The notes beneath the pieces were generated by a model. It did not search any database. It saw only the letters and a list, made by a program, of their open reading frames with translations, and was not told the DNA's origin. A stretch of DNA of 64,000 nucleotides from Eubacteriales bacterium. GTDB lineage: Bacteria; Bacillota; Clostridia; Saccharofermentanales; DTU023. The stretch lies in assembly GCA_030532065.1 (NCBI GenBank), contig JAUNLW010000004.1:1-64000 (forward strand), read 5' to 3'. Below are positions 32,269-56,865 of the stretch, piece after piece. The position numbers and the translations under genes are program-made. Position 1 is the stretch's first letter. Each line of letters opens with the position of its first letter.

Positions 32269-33735
32269 ATGAACCTAAAAATGATTGCCTATTCACTGGG
32301 CAAAATTTTGCAGATCGAAGCCGCTCTCCTGGCAGTGCCGTTGTGCGTCGGCCTCATCTACCACGAAGGTCAGACCATTTATTTAGCCTATCTGGGTGCC
32401 AGTTGTCTGGCTTTTCTCATAGGTAGTCTGCTCAAGGCCAGAAAGCCCAAAGATACCAATATCTATACCAAAGACGGCCTGGTCATTGTCGCTCTGGTCT
32501 GGCTGGTCTATTCAGTAATTGGCTGTCTGCCTCTGATTATCACCGGTGAAGTTCCACAGTTTGTGGACGCTTTTTTTGAGATCATTTCCGGTTTTACTAC
32601 CACCGGAGCCAGCATTATCCCCAACGTAGAAGCTCTCAGCCAGGCCAGCCTCTTTTGGCGTTCTTTTACTCACCTGATCGGTGGTATGGGCGTAATTCTC
32701 TTTGCTTTGGCGGTCATGCCCGGTCTGGGCGCCGAAACCATTCATATTATGAAGGCCGAAGCCACCGGCCCCAACTTCGGTAAAGTAAGTCACACCATCC
32801 AGGACACAGCTCGTCGTCTCTATCTTATTTATTTGTCTATGACCGCAATCCTGACCCTGGTGCTCTTGCTCTGCGGAATGAATCTCTTCGATGCCATGAT
32901 CCATGCCTTCAGTGCCGCCGGCACCGGAGGATTCAGTAATTACAAGAACTCCGTCGGCCACTTCAACAGTCCCTTGATCGAAGTAGTGCTTGGCTTTGGT
33001 GTATTGGCTTTTGGCGTCAACTTTAATGTTTACCACTATCTTCTGCTCAGCAAGTTTCGTTCACGTCCTAAGAGCGAGGAAGTCAATTGGTATTTATCCA
33101 TAGTGGGCATTGCCACCCTATTGATCTCGCTCAATATTCTGCCTCAGGTTCTGGCCCAGGGCGGCAATTACTGGGCGTCCTTACGCCACAGTTTCTTCTA
33201 CACCACCTCTATCATGACTACCACCGGCTTTGTTACCGTGGACTACACCCTCTGGCCGGTCTTCTCGCGTACCATGCTTCTGGCAGTCATGTGCATTGGC
33301 GGCTGTGCCGGCTCAACCGCTGGTGGTCTTAAGGTATCTCGTGTAGCCATGATGACCAAATCCGCAATCCTGGGCATCCGTGGTTCCCAGGAACCGCGTC
33401 GAGCTCTGCCACTTCGCTTTGAATACAAGGCAGTTCGCCCCGAGAAGCTGCGCAAAGTCTTCCAGTTCCTGGTTATCTATATCCTATTTTTTGCTTTATG
33501 CATGTTTGTCGTTTCTTTGGACCAGGTAACTTTCGAAGAAGCTTTTGGCAGTGTCGCAGCCAGTATCAACTGCATCGGACCAGGCATGGGGCGCATGGGC
33601 CCTTTCGGCAACTACGCCATACTAACACCACTCAGCAAGTACACACTCTGCTTTGCCATGATCGCTGGCCGCCTGGAGTTCTACCCCCTGCTCATGCTGC
33701 TCGGCGCGCCCTTCTCAAAGAAAAGAGCAGTCTAA
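32269..33735 (+). CDS. trkH: Trk potassium transporter membrane subunit TrkH
   Basis: TrkH is the potassium-conducting membrane subunit. Its 488 residues contain about ten helices arranged as four pore repeats. Selectivity-filter glycines are visible in GFTTTGAS, SAAGTGGFSNY, SIMTTTGFVTVD and INCIGPGMGRMGP. GGCAGSTAGGLKVSR is the conserved intramembrane-loop region that gates the pore. It ends 15 bases before the 3' end of the minus-strand island at 33.75 kb, so it marks the left limit of ordinary chromosome there. Confidence 0.95.
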   Translation: MNLKMIAYSLGKILQIEAALLAVPLCVGLIYHEGQTIYLAYLGASCLAFLIGSLLKARKPKDTNIYTKDGLVIVALVWLVYSVIGCLPLIITGEVPQFVDAFFEIISGFTTTGASIIPNVEALSQASLFWRSFTHLIGGMGVILFALAVMPGLGAETIHIMKAEATGPNFGKVSHTIQDTARRLYLIYLSMTAILTLVLLLCGMNLFDAMIHAFSAAGTGGFSNYKNSVGHFNSPLIEVVLGFGVLAFGVNFNVYHYLLLSKFRSRPKSEEVNWYLSIVGIATLLISLNILPQVLAQGGNYWASLRHSFFYTTSIMTTTGFVTVDYTLWPVFSRTMLLAVMCIGGCAGSTAGGLKVSRVAMMTKSAILGIRGSQEPRRALPLRFEYKAVRPEKLRKVFQFLVIYILFFALCMFVVSLDQVTFEEAFGSVAASINCIGPGMGRMGPFGNYAILTPLSKYTLCFAMIAGRLEFYPLLMLLGAPFSKKRAV

Positions 33736-33750
33736 ACAACTTTATTGAGC

Positions 33751-34137
33751 TTAATAATTCAGCACTTCTCGTATCTTCTCTATGTACAACTGGTGCAGTG
33801 ATTCTATATTGCTGCTTGAATAGGTCCTGACAACAAATCTATAAACAAAATTAATTTCGTTACTGGAACTAATTACTCTCAAGTATAGCGGCACCAGATC
33901 CTGCTCACGGCTAAAGTCTTTTACCTCTATTTCAATATCCTTGTTGGTATTAAAGGCAACCTCAGATTCATAATTAAAAATTGTCCTGAAAAGGTCTCCT
34001 TTAATTAAATCATTTAGCTCCTGAAATTTCAGAACGTCTATGAAATTAGCACCTTGATGATCAAGTACAGAATGAAAATCCCTGTATGCCTCTTGAACTG
34101 CGATTGCCGGATTATCTTGGTCTAGTCGGATTTCCAA
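33751..34137 (-). pseudogene. NRPS condensation domain, C-terminal fragment
   Basis: 128 codons resemble the end of an NRPS condensation domain. HSVLDHQGANFIDVLKF fits the region before the second-lobe core, FRTIFNYES fits the strand after it, and DLVPLYLRVI with FVYRF fits the C-terminal pattern. It continues the C domain begun in the gene at 34122-36206 but in another frame, joined at FWKSD. The middle of the domain (about 120 residues, including the DFGWG region) is missing. This is therefore a deletion plus frameshift product. A TTG codon at 34137 could start it, but a functional protein is unlikely. Confidence 0.65.
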
Positions 34138-36206
34138 AATCCTGCTTGCATGGCTTCCTCAATACGGCGTTTCGCAAGAAATTCGAGATAGTCCTCTACC
34201 GGTTCCAGCTCTTGCAAACAACTCGAAGAATCTGCTGATAACAATTTTTCAAGCATAACAACAAAGCTATAGTAATCAAATAAAGCATGATGTGCATTAA
34301 TAAGCAAATATGTACTCTCAACTGTCTCGATAAAATAGAAATTAATCAAAGGGCAAGAATCAATTCTAAAATTCTTCACCAGCTTTGCGACAAAATCTCG
34401 GTTCAAAGTTTCGTCTGTTTTAATGTATTTATAATAACTTTCAAAAGGTTCATTCTTATTTTCCACGTAGATATATTTGCCCAGTCCTTGAGGCAAAAAA
34501 GAAAGTCTAAATACTTGGTGCTTGGCAATCAAATTACGTAAATTAAGCTCTAATTTGCTGCGCTCAATATTGGGCTTAATTCTTACAAGTTTAATTAAAT
34601 TATATTGAGGATAAACATCCTCAAAGCCTTCCAAACCTTGAGCATTGCGTTCTAAGTTAAGTGTCATCTCTTGGAAGGAAGGAGGCTGTACCATATGGCC
34701 ACTAATGCTAGCCCCAGCTTCTCTTTCATCAGCCAGCGTCAAACTATAGTTAGAAATAATATCTGCCAGAGGATTATTCGAAAGAAAGAGGTTAGGTGGA
34801 AGATCAATTCCAGCTTCTCTTTGTAATCTAAGGCTGATAGTAAAAGCATCCAGAGAATTCCCGCCTTGGAATAAAAAAGTCTCCTGCAGGTTAATTTTGT
34901 GAAGTAAAGTAGATTCAATAATATTCACGATTGTCTCTTCTGCTGATTGGTTGTTAGAAATTTCGGTGCATATAGGAAGCTCATAATCCGGTAATTTTGC
35001 TTCATCGAACTTACCATTAATATTATAATAGAATCTATCTACCTGCATGAAATAATTGGGGATCATGTAGATTGGCAGTTGTTTCAGAAGAAAAGAATGG
35101 AGAGCCTTAATATCAATTTCTTCCTTAGAAACCAAGTACGCAACGATGCGATCATTAACCAAATCACTAGTCACTTTGATATGCACATCATCAATGCCGG
35201 GATACTTTAAAATATTGCTTTCTATGTCCTTGGTTTCAACACGATAACCGTTAATTTTTAGCTGGTCATCTTTTCTACCTAAATATTCAATCTCTCCATC
35301 ATCTGTCAAGAAACCATAGTCTCCTGAAGCATAGAAAATACCCTCCCTGTCCGGGATCTTTACGAAAGACTCAGCAGTTAAGTCGGGTCTTCCGACATAT
35401 CCCTGTGCGATCGCTCTGCCAGCTATAAAAATTTGGCCCTCCCGCGCCGGCTTAAATTCGTCATCAAGGATAATAACTTCATATCCCTTTAAGGCCCTGC
35501 CGATTGATACGCGAGATAAGCCAAATGCATTATTATGGTCATATTTTTTGCTGGTTGCGAAAATACAGGCTTCTGTAGGTCCATACATATCAATGAGGAT
35601 TTTTTCCGGACCATATTTTTTAAAAAAGTCTTCCAACAAATTAACGCTCAAAGCTTCGCCAACAGAAAATAAAAATTTTGGTGCAAAGTCGTCAGACTCA
35701 ATACACATAAATCTTAAATAGGTTGGAGTCAGATCAATGAGATCAATTTTATTTTTTTTCAAAAATAAAGTCAGCTCCCTAGGATTCGCCTTTAGATGGT
35801 CTTTAATAAGAAACAAAGATTTACCGGCAAGTATACTGCAATAAATCATACCAATCGAAACGTCAAACGTCTTTTCCGTAGAATGGTCAAAGACAGCAAA
35901 GCCCGCATGCGAATTGCCTACAATAAGGTTAATCCTTTGCTCCGGAAAAGCTGTGTTTACAGGTATAAAATATGCTCCAATATACAATATAGCCAACTGG
36001 CAAATGATATAATCCAGAGAGCGTTGCATATAAATAATCACGCCATCATTTATGTTAACTCCTGCCTTTGTCAGGCCACAAGCGATTTGCATGATTTTTT
36101 TGTTTAGTTGACTGTAGCTATAGTTATTAACTCCATCACTGAGCGCTAATTTATCGGGATAAGCCTGAGCAATAGAGGAAATTCTTTCGTGGAACAAATT
36201 TTGCAT
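34122..36206 (-). pseudogene. NRPS gene (adenylation-carrier-condensation), internally deleted
   Basis: A 694-residue frame. Residues 1-400 are an adenylation domain with MYGPTEACIFAT (A5), YASGDYGFL and LGRKDDQLKINGYRVE (A7-A8) and NGKFD with the A10 Lys. The sequence jumps from FAVFDHSTE to KTFDVSIGMIYCSILAG near residue 111. About 90-100 residues that should hold the A3 phosphate-binding loop (SGTTGKPKG) are absent. A carrier domain follows with its attachment Ser in FQGGNSLDAF. The first lobe of a condensation domain has NAHHALFDYYS, the HHxxxD motif. The frame then stops after FWKSD. Without A3 and half of the C domain it cannot work as an NRPS module. It is AT-rich relative to its flanks. 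Confidence 0.8.
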
Positions 36207-36230
36207 TTATATACTCCCTCATTGGAGTTC

Positions 36231-36770
36231 TCAAGAAAAGTCCATGAGATTGATGAGTTGTTCCTCATCAAGCACATCAAGAACAAAATGATCATCTTGG
36301 AACTCGAAACACATACACACAAGATATTTTGCTCTGTAAAGCATGTACCATAAAGTAAAGACAGATTGTCCTTGATGTAGGGTGGCAGCTAACTTAGCAG
36401 AATGATCTACATGAATGGCCATCACTTCATGTGATAAACCAGTCCCTAACAACTTTAAGTAAGCTTCCTTGGCAGTCCAATTTTCTAGCAGAAAATGAGC
36501 TTTGTCTTCAAGTGATTGCATGGAAACATACTCCGCGTAATTATCTTCATGCAGCATGTTTTGGGCTAGTATCTCCGGGTATTTAATTTTTCGATCTAAA
36601 GCTTCAACATCAATACCCACTCTCTGATTTGAGACAGCTACAGACACCAACTTATCCGTATGACTAAGGCTGCAATAAAGATTACTTCCTTGAATGACTG
36701 GCTTGCCCAGGTCATCATATACTATTGACTTCCCGCACGATGTTATCCACCGCTTGACGTACATCATCAC
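36231..36770 (-). pseudogene. Sfp-type phosphopantetheinyl transferase, N-terminally truncated
   Basis: Sfp-type enzymes add phosphopantetheine to NRPS carrier domains. The kept part starts at DLGKPVIQG and has CSLSHTDKLVSVAVS, the metal-binding VGIDVE, and WTAKEAYLKLLGTGLS. These are the core P-pant transferase motifs. About 60 N-terminal residues are missing. The first 15 codons of the open frame overlap the acyl-ligase fragment out of frame, so the start looks like a chance ATG at a deletion junction near 36720. Activity cannot be excluded because the catalytic residues remain, but truncation makes it doubtful. It lies 24 bases upstream of the NRPS gene. Confidence 0.75.
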
Positions 36771-37340
36771 TATTTATATCGAAGCCGTCCTTCACGACAA
36801 TGCGAGCATGAATGTGAGCTCCTTCACCCAGAGATGATTTCTTAGCAAAAACTAAGCTTTCTTTAACGATTTCATAGCCATTTATGAAAGATTCCAGTTC
36901 CTCAGGTGAAACATTTTCACCATTACTAAGGATAATCAGGTTTTTTATTCTGCCTGTAATATATATGTAACCATCTGCATCAATCCTGCCCACGTCACCG
37001 GTATGGAACCAACCATCAATGAAGCTCACTTCATTCAATTCAGGAGAATTATAATATCCCTTGGTCACAATATTTCCCTTTACAAGGATTTCACCATTTA
37101 GCAAACTAACTTGGCAGTGTTTTTTGCTAGGTACTCGCCCGACACTTCCTAAGCGGCTATGTCCATAGGTATTTGTAGAAACCAGAGGAGAACACTCTGT
37201 AATGCCGTAACCAACGAACACGTGATATGGTTGGAAAATAATCCTTCGATTATCAATTCCTGTGCTAGCAGTTCCTGGCTTTGGCGAAGCTTATCCTCGA
37301 AATGGGAGGATAGAAAGATTAGTACAATCGATATAGCCAT
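36715..37340 (-). pseudogene. Acyl-CoA/acyl-ACP ligase fragment, frameshifted
   Basis: The frame from 37221 down has YGITECSPLVSTN (A5-like), GEILVKG, GWFHTGDVGRIDADGYIYITG and NLIILSNGENVSPEELE, which mark an AMP-forming fatty-acyl ligase. The preceding 13-40 residues (FEDKLRQSQELLAQELI, matching the usual run-up to A5) lie in a different frame starting at 37340, so a frameshift lies between about 37225 and 37250. The first 250 or so residues, with the ATP-binding loop, are gone. The C-terminus stops after DNIVREVNSI, before the expected catalytic Lys, where it runs into the PPTase remnant. It probably once activated a fatty acid for the pathway. Confidence 0.75.
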
Positions 37341-37359
37341 GAGCGGCGTGACTACATTG

Positions 37360-38239
37360 TTATTCCATTGCTTCCTTAAAACGCTTTATGTTCGCCAGTA
37401 AAGTCCCTAACTGCGCCCTATCCTGCATCACCTCATACATCCTAGCTAAGACTGTATGTACCAGTTGCCTGATGTACAGGCATTTTGACTCAACGACTTT
37501 CCCCTGGTTGATTTCAGCACACCAGCCGGAACACAAGCCAAAAATTTCGCAGCCAGCACAATTTTCAGGCAAATTAACTTCAATCTTTTTACTTGAGTTA
37601 AAATCCAAACTGTGTTCCCGGAAATAAGCAGGATCATCGGATAAGTAACACTTCAAAATATCTCCTTCTGTATTTATGGTTAAATTACCCATACCTGCGG
37701 AGCAAGTGTTCCTCATTTTATGCTTAGTCAAAATAGAGACAATGGTGTTTGTAATGGCAAAATCAAAAATCTGACAATTTGGATTTAAGAGATAATTAAG
37801 CATGACCTCAAGATATTCTCCACACAATTCGGCGTACTTAGCGCTTGTGCAAAAGAAACTATCCATGGCTTGAGTGAAGATAATATTGAAAACAATTGCA
37901 TTAACACCGTGTTCCAGAAATTCCTGTACAATCTCTGCCATGTCTCCCGGCTTGTATTTTTTGACCAGTAGATCTGTGATGGATAATTCAATTATTTTAC
38001 GTATACCCTCTAAGAGTAATAGGTAGGCTTTTTTATACCAAGCTTCTCACAGTGTAAATCGACAAATTCTACAACCTCTCGCATGAATTGCGGGTTACAA
38101 AGCGGCTCTCCTCCAAAAAACTGGTGTCGTTGCAGCGCTCTGTATGCCGGTATTGTTCTGAGGACTTCATGTACTTAAAACTCTCTAAATCGAAATAGAC
38201 ATTGTGCTCCTGATTGCCGGCAACAAATATCGCTTCCAT
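37360..38239 (-). pseudogene. Radical SAM/SPASM enzyme gene, broken in three frames
   Basis: Three fragments in three frames form the remains of one gene. ATG 38239 gives a typical N-terminus (MEAIFVAGNQEHNVYFDLES) but ends without the radical SAM CX3CX2C motif. From about 38123 another frame reads QFFGGEPLCNPQFMREVVEF, the GGE motif that binds SAM. From about 38025 a third frame runs to 37360. It includes CSAGMGNLTINTEGDILKC and CAGCEIFGLCSGWC, the SPASM cysteines for auxiliary Fe-S clusters. The central TNG/SlDG region is also missing. Such enzymes modify peptides or proteins, as in RiPP or sulfatase maturation. The start is three bases after the ABC ATPase stop. Confidence 0.75.
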
Positions 38240-38241
38240 AA

Positions 38242-38898
38242 TTACTCTTCTCCTAAGCTTTGCTGAATTTGACCATCAGTTAAAATCAACGTTCTGTCGA
38301 AATAATGCGCTAACCTGGTATCATGTGTAACTACAAAAATTAACAGATCATTACTCAGCTTCTTAAGCATATCCATCACACAAATCGCACTTTTTAAGTC
38401 CAGAGACGCTGTAGGCTCATCCGCAAGAATCAGCTTGGCATCACTATTTATTAAAGCTCTGGCAATGGCTGCTCTTTGTTGTTGGCCGCCTGATAGCGCA
38501 TAAGGCTTTTTGAGAGCATACTCTCGTATACCGAGTTCCTCCATCAGCGCAAGCGCTGTGTCTTTCTGTTCGTAAGAGTTCAAGCTGGTCAGAACATTGT
38601 CCAAAATAGTTAAGTAGGGGATTAGAAAAGGTTTTTGGAAGATAAGAGCAAACTCTTTTTTTCTCATTTTGAGTATGTCATCATCTCGCAAGATTTGATA
38701 ATTATATTTGTTAAAAACAACGCTGCCTGACCAATATTGCCTCTTAAAACCCGCAATAGTATAAAGCAACGTACTCTTACCAGATCCTGAAGGTCCTGTA
38801 ATACCAATCATCCCATTATCTGGAAATTCCAGATTTACATCGTAGAGAATTCTCGCTCCGTTCTCATATCTGAAATTTAGATTCTCCAATCTCAACAT
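38242..38898 (-). CDS. ABC transporter ATP-binding protein, MacB/LolD type
   Basis: A 218-residue ATPase that looks intact. Walker A is GPSGSGKST near residue 37. The Q-loop lies in LIFQKPFLIPYLTILDNV, the signature is LSGGQQQR, Walker B is LILADEPTASLD, and the switch His is in VVTHD. It belongs to the MacB/LolD/FtsE branch that works with FtsX-like permeases. It begins two bases after the permease stop, so the two form a transporter. In this island it would be expected to export the pathway product or supply self-protection. It is the best preserved gene here together with the permease. Confidence 0.9.
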   Translation of the reverse strand: MLRLENLNFRYENGARILYDVNLEFPDNGMIGITGPSGSGKSTLLYTIAGFKRQYWSGSVVFNKYNYQILRDDDILKMRKKEFALIFQKPFLIPYLTILDNVLTSLNSYEQKDTALALMEELGIREYALKKPYALSGGQQQRAAIARALINSDAKLILADEPTASLDLKSAICVMDMLKKLSNDLLIFVVTHDTRLAHYFDRTLILTDGQIQQSLGEE

Positions 38899-38900
38899 CT

Positions 38901-39962
38901 CTACATGCCACCTTCTACTACATCGATAGGATCTATTTTCTTTATATAGGATTGAATCGGGATCGCAGAAAAGACTAAGACCATGAGGATCATTAGTAGT
39001 ACTTCTTTTAAGTAAGATAGTTTAAACACATCCAAAGGTTGACCCATTGGCATAAACACAGTCAGATTTAGAATTTCAAGTATGATGATCGATAATCCGC
39101 TTCCGATGAGAAGACTTATTATTAGAGTATAGATAATCTCAAAAATCGACCTTCTGGCTACCCAGTTTTTACTGTAGCCTATAGCCATCAATATGCCGAA
39201 TTCTGCAGACCTTTGGATGTAAAACAGGTAGAGCAAGAAGGAAATAGAAATTGTAGTGACCAGAACTATCACAATCAGCAGCACAGCCATGATAGCAACC
39301 AAAATATAGCCGTAATCGTCTATGTCAGAAAGCTCCGACTCATAACTATAAAGTAAATCTGCTGCATCATCCTGCGTCGCATTTTCCCTGCTAACCAGCT
39401 TTCCACGCTCGACTGTGCCTTTGACAGATTCCAGGCCTTCAATTGACCCTATGCTCAGAAGACCATCTGCATCAATCAAGCCAACAATCAAAAATTCTCC
39501 ATTCAGAGAATCGTTTTTTCCTAAATCAGATCCTATAACACTACCTACGGTCCAACCTTGATTAATCGCGATATTTTTATGTACCACAATCTCATTGCTT
39601 CCCGCTTTGGGGTAATTGCCCTTTAGTAAATCAACCTGATTAAGCTCTATGATCTGCTCCATGCCGGCTGAACTGGTAAAGAAAGCATAGGAAGAAATAC
39701 GACCCGTAGTACCGGTCATATAAATTTTTTCGACTACTATGTCCTCAGCATCCCGATTATCGGCATTTGCTTTCTCTATAGAAAATTCCTTAAAGGGTAA
39801 AGCCCAGGTTCGTACCACATTTGCTTCAATAGACTGGATGATCCCTTTACTGAGAAATAATAAAACTACTCCCAATATCGCAATCGCCGTAACTAATATT
39901 GTCTTTTTCTTATTACTGAAAACATACTTTTGTATTGACAGTGGTCTCTGCATGCTAGCCAT
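38901..39962 (-). CDS. ABC transporter permease, FtsX/MacB-like
   Basis: A 353-residue permease. An N-terminal helix (about residues 20-42, after KYVFSNKKK) precedes an extracellular domain of about 180 residues. Three helices then lie in the C-terminal third, with EFGILMAIGYSKNWVARRSI between the first two, the usual FtsX cytoplasmic coupling element. The end, KIDPIDVVEGG, is a standard MacB-family C-terminus. No frameshift or deletion is evident. ATG 39962 was chosen; GGGG lies nine bases upstream, a weak binding site. The stop codon of the ACP-like remnant falls within its first codons, so coupled translation is likely to have been the original arrangement. Confidence 0.85.
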   Translation of the reverse strand: MASMQRPLSIQKYVFSNKKKTILVTAIAILGVVLLFLSKGIIQSIEANVVRTWALPFKEFSIEKANADNRDAEDIVVEKIYMTGTTGRISSYAFFTSSAGMEQIIELNQVDLLKGNYPKAGSNEIVVHKNIAINQGWTVGSVIGSDLGKNDSLNGEFLIVGLIDADGLLSIGSIEGLESVKGTVERGKLVSRENATQDDAADLLYSYESELSDIDDYGYILVAIMAVLLIVIVLVTTISISFLLYLFYIQRSAEFGILMAIGYSKNWVARRSIFEIIYTLIISLLIGSGLSIIILEILNLTVFMPMGQPLDVFKLSYLKEVLLMILMVLVFSAIPIQSYIKKIDPIDVVEGGM

Positions 39963-40137
39963 GTTGTACCCCACATAATTTACCTAGTGTTTCTTGCTTA
40001 GCCTTAGAGAATTGGTCAATTAACGAGAACAGCTTGCTTAAGTCTAAATCTTGTAAAGGCACATTATCTGCCAAGAAATCCACTTTTCGTCTGATCTGCA
40101 CAAGCGGTAAACAATCCTTATCCAGCCTTTCTACCTT
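39955..40137 (-). pseudogene. Remnant resembling the second half of an acyl carrier protein
   Basis: A 60-codon open frame with no start codon of its own; the frame is blocked by TGA just upstream. KDCLPLVQIRRKVDF is spaced like the DSLxLVEL motif of carrier proteins, with the attachment Ser replaced by Cys. VPLQDLDLSKLFSLIDQF follows like helices III-IV of an ACP. In another frame ATG CTA AAC just upstream (from 40160 on the minus strand) reads MLNKVDVKG, which could be the original start before a one-base shift. It is first in the island, as expected for a stand-alone ACP. The identification rests on pattern only. The rest of 39963-40357 holds a terminator and no other gene. Confidence 0.4.
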
Positions 40138-40357: not shown

Positions 40358-41020
40358 TTAGATAGCGCCCTCTTCGTTGATCAGTTCTTTGACCTTCATC
40401 AGGCGAGTAAGAGTCGCGCGCTCATCTTCGTCCAGCTTCATACGGATATATTTTATGGTCTCTTCCAGGTCAGGGATCGTGCGATATTCCAGAGCATTTA
40501 CCCTACGCCTGGTCGACTCGATATCTTCCGCTAAAAGCTGACAGGTTTTCTCTACCTCCGCCAGTTCCAAAAGCTTATCCATAATGTCGTTTAGGCGCTC
40601 AATGGCCTCATCCAGGTCAGCCGAGGTCTGCGCGTAACCATAAGATTCTACCTGCTGACTCTCCGCTTCCGGGAAGTCCGGATGCGGACGACGCTCGTAA
40701 CGAATTTTTGGTACGGGCACACTCATCATATTGACTTCCGTCACTTCCGCCAGCATCTGGAACTTAGAAAAGGACACCGCCTCTTCCAATCGTTCCGGGC
40801 TCATAACAGCAGCTGCCAGCATGAAGTCCTTAAAGCTTTCGGCCAGAGCGGCTTCTACTTCGCGGCGCAGCTCCAGATTATGACGCACAGCTTCAATAAA
40901 GCGGCGCATCAATTCATCCTGCTTATCCTTGAGCAACTTGTGACCTCTGGTTGAAGTCTTAAGTCGCGCCGTCAGGTTTTGGAGCACCATGCGGGTAGGA
41001 CTGACGTTAAGCCTGGCCAT
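40358..41020 (-). CDS. ntpD: V-type ATP synthase subunit D
   Basis: Subunit D is the coiled-coil central shaft that turns inside the A3B3 head. The 220-residue protein starts MARLNVSPTRMVLQNLTARL, and the N-terminal helix with HKLLKDKQDELMRRF is the shaft signature. The C-terminal RRVNALEYRTIPDLEETIKY completes the antiparallel coiled coil. The length is normal. It is last in the nine-gene operon ordered as Enterococcus ntpFIKECGABD and begins one base after the ntpB stop. Confidence 0.95.
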   Translation of the reverse strand: MARLNVSPTRMVLQNLTARLKTSTRGHKLLKDKQDELMRRFIEAVRHNLELRREVEAALAESFKDFMLAAAVMSPERLEEAVSFSKFQMLAEVTEVNMMSVPVPKIRYERRPHPDFPEAESQQVESYGYAQTSADLDEAIERLNDIMDKLLELAEVEKTCQLLAEDIESTRRRVNALEYRTIPDLEETIKYIRMKLDEDERATLTRLMKVKELINEEGAI

Positions 41021-55386: not shown

Positions 55387-56865
55387 ATGACTGAAATAGA
55401 TAAAAACAATAAGCCTCAAAAAAAAGACGGGCTAAAGCTGCCTGATGAGTTCTACCAGGATCTGGGGCTGGAGCCTCAGGGCCTACCCGACCTCAGCGAA
55501 GCCTGGAGCGATATCGAAGCGCGCGGAGCGGCTCGGGAAGATTTAGAAGATCTGGCTTATCTGTCAGGCACAGCAGCGCCGGTTTCTGAAGATACGCAAG
55601 ATCCAGATGCGGCAGCCGATCAGGAAACTGCCTCCAACACGGACAGAATGTCGTCTCAAACTGATGATCTGCCTGGAGCAACTGATCTGGAGCCGTCAAC
55701 GGCAAAAAGACAGGAAGGCCCAGAAAACTCGGAGACTCCAGTCAAGCCGTCGAAGCCTCATAATCCAAAGTCTCAAGTTCAGCCCACTCCGCCTCATAAG
55801 CCGGAAAAGTATACCAAAGAAGCGAGCAAAGCACCTAGTCTACGCGATAAATTCCGAGCCTTGCGCAAATATTTCATCATTTCTGTTGTGCTTAATCTGG
55901 TTCTGATCGCCGCTTTGGTGCTCTTGGGTGTCTTCTACTACAAAGAGATCAATAGCGGCAAGCGCCTGGAACCCAAGGAAGAGCAAACCACGGTCACCTC
56001 CATTGACCTGGATAAAACGGCCGCGACCGGTGAAGCAGATAGCAAGCAGGACGCGGAAACCGAAAGGACCAACTCTTCTGAGGAGGCCAAGGATAGTACA
56101 GCCGATAAAGCCAAGACAGAAAAGACAGAGGACACAGATAAAGCCAAAAAGGACAGCAGCGGCGCCGCAGCCAAAGCAAGCGAAAGCAAGAGCAAAAAGC
56201 CCGCTACTACCAAAGCCAAAGCAACCACTGAGGCTAAGACTACCAGTGCAAAAGAAACTACGACTGCTGAAACTAGTACCACTAAAGCAACTACCGAAGC
56301 AGAAACCAGCGCTAAGCCGGTAGTGACCACAACCGTAAAAGTCACAGAAGAAAGTAAGAGAGGCAGCCAGGAGACCTCTGTCAGGGAGACCTCTGTCAAG
56401 GAAACCAAGGCCAGGGAAACCTCTGCCAGGGAAAGCAAAGCCCCCGCGGAGACCAGCAGCAAAGCGGCAAAAGCTACTGAAGCTGAAAGTCCCCTGGACA
56501 AGGCTTTGGCCAAGGCCAAAAAGCTCAGCCAGGAAGAGCTAAAAGATAAGGCTCTCAATCTCAACTACTACGAGATGTCCGCCGACCCTGATCAACACGT
56601 GAATGATCTGGTGGTTGCCGGCGGTAAAATCCTCAATATTTACGATGACGGTTTCTTGATCGTAGAAGATTACCTGCCTGGCGGTCTCACCTACTACTAC
56701 TGCCCCTGGTTTATTCGCTTCGACAAGGCTAAAGACCTGGGACTTTCCGTCGGCGAGGTAGTAAACTTCTACGGTATTTATACCGAGATGGGCACTTACC
56801 GGGAAGACAGTGCCGAGCAGGCACTGATCTTGGAAGGTGTGGACTATGTATCCGTAGGCTGGTAA
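55387..56865 (+). CDS. Single-pass membrane protein with Thr/Ala/Lys/Glu-rich spacer
   Basis: A 492-residue protein that I do not recognise. Residues 1-155 are polar, acidic and predicted cytoplasmic. One membrane helix spans about 162-184 (FIISVVLNLVLIAALVLLGV). Residues 190-375 are a low-complexity spacer of Lys, Ala, Glu, Ser and Thr, with short repeated units such as ETSVRETSVKET. The last 115 residues fold differently: LNYYEMSADPDQHVNDLVV starts a compact region with DDGFLIVEDYLPGG and VGEVVNFYGIYTEMGTY, which resembles a small beta-barrel, possibly OB-like. It probably displays that domain across the wall. Confidence 0.75.
   Translation: MTEIDKNNKPQKKDGLKLPDEFYQDLGLEPQGLPDLSEAWSDIEARGAAREDLEDLAYLSGTAAPVSEDTQDPDAAADQETASNTDRMSSQTDDLPGATDLEPSTAKRQEGPENSETPVKPSKPHNPKSQVQPTPPHKPEKYTKEASKAPSLRDKFRALRKYFIISVVLNLVLIAALVLLGVFYYKEINSGKRLEPKEEQTTVTSIDLDKTAATGEADSKQDAETERTNSSEEAKDSTADKAKTEKTEDTDKAKKDSSGAAAKASESKSKKPATTKAKATTEAKTTSAKETTTAETSTTKATTEAETSAKPVVTTTVKVTEESKRGSQETSVRETSVKETKARETSARESKAPAETSSKAAKATEAESPLDKALAKAKKLSQEELKDKALNLNYYEMSADPDQHVNDLVVAGGKILNIYDDGFLIVEDYLPGGLTYYYCPWFIRFDKAKDLGLSVGEVVNFYGIYTEMGTYREDSAEQALILEGVDYVSVGW

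Follow-up and report, generated by a model that had tools for sequence, protein, structure and literature searches.

An AT-rich island of ~6.5 kb, located at 33.7-40.3 kb of the window (the whole stretch of 64,000 nucleotides analysed here) between trkH and the V-ATPase operon, is well supported as the decaying remains of an imported acyl-NRPS-type cluster that included an exporter. The cluster was probably inserted at this site from a donor of lower GC content, and a number of internal deletions then inactivated it. In the best reading of the data, both the acquisition and the inactivation were recent. The features of the island, with the evidence for each, are as follows.

33751..34137, minus strand: C-terminal piece of a condensation domain, frame-shifted from the rest (weak match to the C domain of L137)
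34122..36206, minus strand: NRPS with a gapped A domain, a PCP and the N-terminal part of a C domain (Pfam/NCBIfam: AMP-binding, PP-binding, Condensation)
36231..36734, minus strand: Sfp-type phosphopantetheinyl transferase (PPTase), N-terminal ~40 residues gone (Pfam/NCBIfam over 36231-36770, and alignment)
36715..37221, minus strand: middle part of an acyl/AMP ligase (Pfam/NCBIfam and alignment)
37360..38019, minus strand: radical SAM enzyme, C-terminal half including the SPASM domain (NCBIfam over 37360-37941, and alignment)
38013..38126, minus strand: second piece of this radical SAM gene, with FFGGEPL, in another frame (E 8e-5 to residues 133-159 of L052)
38105..38239, minus strand: candidate for the N-terminal piece of this enzyme, in a third frame, without CxxxCxxC (position and start codon only)
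38242..38898, minus strand: complete ABC exporter ATPase (Pfam/NCBIfam and alignment)
38901..39974, minus strand: open frame of an FtsX-type exporter permease, probable start 39953 (Pfam and alignment)
39975..40137, minus strand: proposed ACP remnant, not supported (vague alignment only)

Both strand and composition agree with the initial annotation, which had seen an AT-rich row of minus-strand genes between trkH and the V-ATPase operon. Every recognisable island gene lies on the minus strand, and the GC content of the island is ~39% (0.37-0.41 by stretch) versus ~0.51 in the flanks, the mean of the sampled part of the genome being 0.48. Codon composition is shifted as well, with a GC3 of 0.35-0.42 in the retained island pieces other than the PPTase and 0.55-0.62 in the neighbouring genes, and the AT-rich composition extends to about 40240. 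The island is flanked by the 3' ends of convergent genes, trkH with its stop codon at 33735 and the V-ATPase subunit D gene with its stop codon at 40358. The congener G002 also has trkA-trkH and the V-ATPase D gene as convergent neighbours, 171 bp apart, and the gap between them is empty. In G001, unrelated genes come after the V-ATPase operon. The foreign composition, the empty site in G002 and the absence of an orthologous permease from 188 genomes of the order together indicate that the island was acquired. No integrase or transposase was found in the island, its edges have only one 9-mer in common, which is no meaningful flanking repeat, and promoter and terminator scans of the island stayed at the level of shuffled sequence. 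Elsewhere in the window, at 55387-56865, a very strong AT skew (0.3-0.4) is caused by a gene whose 492-aa product has a single hydrophobic stretch and an extended linker rich in Lys, Glu, Thr and Ala.

The genes next to trkH had been read as an A-PCP-C NRPS. The domains themselves were identified with Pfam and NCBIfam, whereas A-PCP-C as a whole enzyme is not established. Compared with intact relatives, the A domain is missing ~80 residues after its residue 109, and this gap, which is in frame and lies near 35880, takes out the A3 P-loop region. The PCP keeps GGNSL, and the front part of the C domain keeps HHALFD as its HHxxxD motif, in a domain that is split. The C-domain tail at 33751..34137, which is in another frame, gave no Pfam match; its residues 44-123 align weakly (E 0.004) to residues 366-447 of the 465-residue stand-alone C domain of L137, so that roughly 150 residues of the C domain are gone. 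Only weaker NRPS-like matches, none of this size or score, were found elsewhere in the same genome.

As the NRPS frame stops 15 bp from the trkH stop codon, the enzyme may originally have been longer than A-PCP-C. It might once have been multimodular, of the A-PCP-C-A-PCP-R kind, and truncated at the left edge, in which case the product would have been of the dipeptide type and not a single acylated amino acid. Such an origin is consistent with the best NCBIfam score of the NRPS, which is to AusA (278.9 bits, below the cut-off of 2,500), and with a dimodular NRPS carrying a terminal reductase in the same family. However, the frame terminates about where a C domain ends, and we regard the multimodular origin as possible but doubtful.

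Upstream of the NRPS in the order of transcription, the PPTase had been predicted correctly according to Pfam and NCBIfam, though its N-terminus is missing: the piece begins only at about residue 41 of an intact relative of 195 residues. No second Sfp-type PPTase was matched elsewhere in the genome. The ligase piece corresponds to residues 365-513 of a 571-residue intact relative and retains neither the P-loop part nor the C-terminal end. It had been called a fatty-acyl ligase. An acyl/AMP ligase it is, but its closest solved structures are acyl-CoA synthetases with various substrates, and the label "fatty-acyl" is therefore a guess. An AMP-forming ligase thus lies beside an NRPS, both as remnants, whereas no free-standing ACP, another mark of an acyl-primed NRPS cluster, was found in the island. 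The ACP of the initial annotation was not borne out, since the proposed remnant had no Pfam match even at E 10 and could be aligned only vaguely.

The radical SAM/SPASM gene is broken, as had been claimed. Its recognised pieces are in different frames and align to residues 133-159 and to the part from residue 235 onward in a relative of 472 aa; the SPASM cysteines and the GGEP motif are present, and the CxxxCxxC cluster motif is absent from every frame of 37360-38241. The piece at 38105..38239 showed no significant match to relatives.

Losses relative to intact relatives were thus seen in the A domain, the C domain, the PPTase, the ligase and the radical SAM enzyme, which confirms the breakage noted earlier. 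At least eight segments are missing, all of them sizeable and all confined to the AT-rich island. Across the 1,414 codons retained, there is not a single stop, and none of the pieces is interrupted by a small frameshift. Under neutrality, the absence of stop codons puts an upper limit of about 1.5% on the substitutions per site accumulated after inactivation, so the inactivation would be recent and would have involved eight or more sizeable deletions. Provided that the assembly is correct, large deletions silenced a foreign biosynthetic cluster before stop codons had arisen.

A damage spectrum of large deletions only, without stop codons, is unusual for ordinary decay, and for this reason an assembly fault comes into question. 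The cluster in the cell would then be intact, and an AT-rich stretch with low coverage or strain variation would have lost segments during assembly, with the gaps closed afterwards. Besides the number and kind of the losses, their restriction to the AT-rich island speaks for such a fault. However, the contig is 72 kb long, the flanks are clean, and other AT-rich stretches of the same assembly carry complete long genes. The last point speaks against a general problem with AT-rich DNA, although it does not settle this locus. We consider an assembly fault unlikely and keep to inactivation by deletion in the genome itself. Two AT-rich stretches on contig C11 of the same genome (G000) were noted in their own right. 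At about 35-37 kb (L169:14918-16745), a type III restriction-modification region lies in a 17-kb AT-rich stretch, and its methylase gene is in two frames, split beside a run of seven A, possibly by phase variation or a sequencing fault. At about 460-463 kb (L191:152-3277), an AT-rich stretch holds glycine/sarcosine/betaine reductase genes, and the split in one of their frames is compatible with a selenocysteine encoded by TGA.

The exporter is not as intact as first described. The ATPase is whole and carries Walker A, the LSGGQ signature and Walker B. The permease, in contrast, is without two segments common to nine full-length relatives, one of ~18-20 aa near 39720 and one of ~10-12 aa near 39300. 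Both gaps are in frame, and at 24-29% identity to these relatives they could reflect sequence divergence rather than loss. By its ATPase motifs and FtsX-type permease domain, the pair belongs to the FtsX/MacB type of ABC exporters, with two gaps in the permease. The closest permease/ATPase pairs, in Anaerocolumna, Herbinix, Clostridium and others (L141-L147, L149, L154), have the same permease-then-ATPase order and are 24-29% (permease) and 40-46% (ATPase) identical along their length. Unlike the island pair, most of them have a histidine kinase and response regulator close by, and neither NRPS nor other biosynthetic genes are in their neighbourhood. Alternatively, one import could combine an NRPS cluster that is dead with an adjoining, separate exporter that is still in use. 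This would fit the complete ATPase, the in-frame permease gaps and the stand-alone character of these relatives, but it is improbable given that the permease is without segments that nine relatives keep and that no regulator pair adjoins the exporter.

We infer from adjacency, common strand and shared composition that all island genes once served one pathway. In the ancestor of the decaying cluster, the ligase would charge a carrier with an acyl group, the PPTase would arm the carrier domains, the A-PCP part would load an amino acid, and the C domain would form the bond. The radical SAM enzyme would modify the product and the ABC pair would export it. The ancestral product was probably a small exported acylated amino-acid-based molecule. 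In the present assembly, most of the enzymes are without their catalytic parts and the pathway is dead. It is also conceivable, if rather unlikely, that the island is what is left of one member of an undescribed family, with intact members elsewhere, whose exported acyl-aminoacyl natural products are made by an NRPS and tailored by a radical SAM/SPASM enzyme.

The interest of the island lies in a possible intact relative, which was not found among the genomes searched. About 990 whole genomes were searched with one gene or another, and none carried the same gene set. Since single proteins could be scanned only as six exact 8-mers, alignments of natural relatives served as queries. A scan of 84,980 species with the permease alignment, whose patterns would overlook many true orthologues, gave 27 loci, none with the ligase-NRPS-SPASM set. 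Likewise, no locus with the set was found by the permease in 399 genomes of the phylum, by the SPASM piece in 391 genomes of the class and two further families, by the NRPS and ligase in 59 relatives, by the PPTase in 188 genomes, or on plasmids or viral contigs; an alignment of the SPASM piece allowing conservative substitutions also had no match on viral contigs. The loci of the closest permeases had no NRPS, ligase or SPASM neighbours. A ligase match in Prevotella oral taxon 299 (L113) was rejected as a related cluster, its neighbours being unrelated. A literature search returned no description of the combination. Thus, the intact locus with the same gene order that the initial annotation hoped for did not turn up in these genomes. 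Its interpretation holds for a decaying acyl-NRPS-type cluster with an exporter; its specific product, a small acylated, radical-modified aminoacyl compound, remains unproven, as the same set was not found elsewhere.

Known systems resemble the island in parts. AusA, the aureusimine synthetase (A-PCP-C-A-PCP-R), begins with A-PCP-C like the island NRPS, whose score falls below the AusA cut-off, and its second module and reductase are absent from the island. Ligase relatives in the same order are about 42-52% identical, and some are in intact clusters. Three of these (L134-L136), from the same family as the window, have an intact acyl ligase and multidomain NRPS, an ACP in two of the three, and in some an adjoining PPTase. 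Their ligases are 42-48% identical to that of the island and their NRPS A and C domains ~25-29%. The L136 NRPS comprises C, A and PCP domains, two of each, and ends in a reductase, whereas no second module was seen in the island. In L134 (G034) and L136 (G017), a 7TM histidine kinase and an HD-domain response regulator lie between the NRPS and the ligase/ACP. Unlike the island, L134-L136 have no radical SAM gene and no FtsX/ATPase pair of the island's kind. In L137, from the same order, the ligase is 44-50% identical to that of the island, and an ACP, a PPTase, an ABC exporter and a C domain are also present; unlike the island, its contig has no A domain or radical SAM gene, and the locus includes a 1,235-aa permease and an ATP-grasp gene. 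The L137 locus itself (L137:6572-16291, G043 contig C52) holds an intact ligase, ACP, PPTase, ABC ATPase and the 1,235-aa permease, together with a divergent stand-alone C domain and an ATP-grasp protein of the sugar-transfer type. No recognised radical SAM gene was found in any of the L134-L137 clusters. The island is thus of the broad acyl-NRPS type that these bacteria carry, and its radical SAM enzyme is the element without a counterpart. It would be unusual for a small acyl-NRPS cluster to combine a radical SAM/SPASM enzyme with an exporter of its own.
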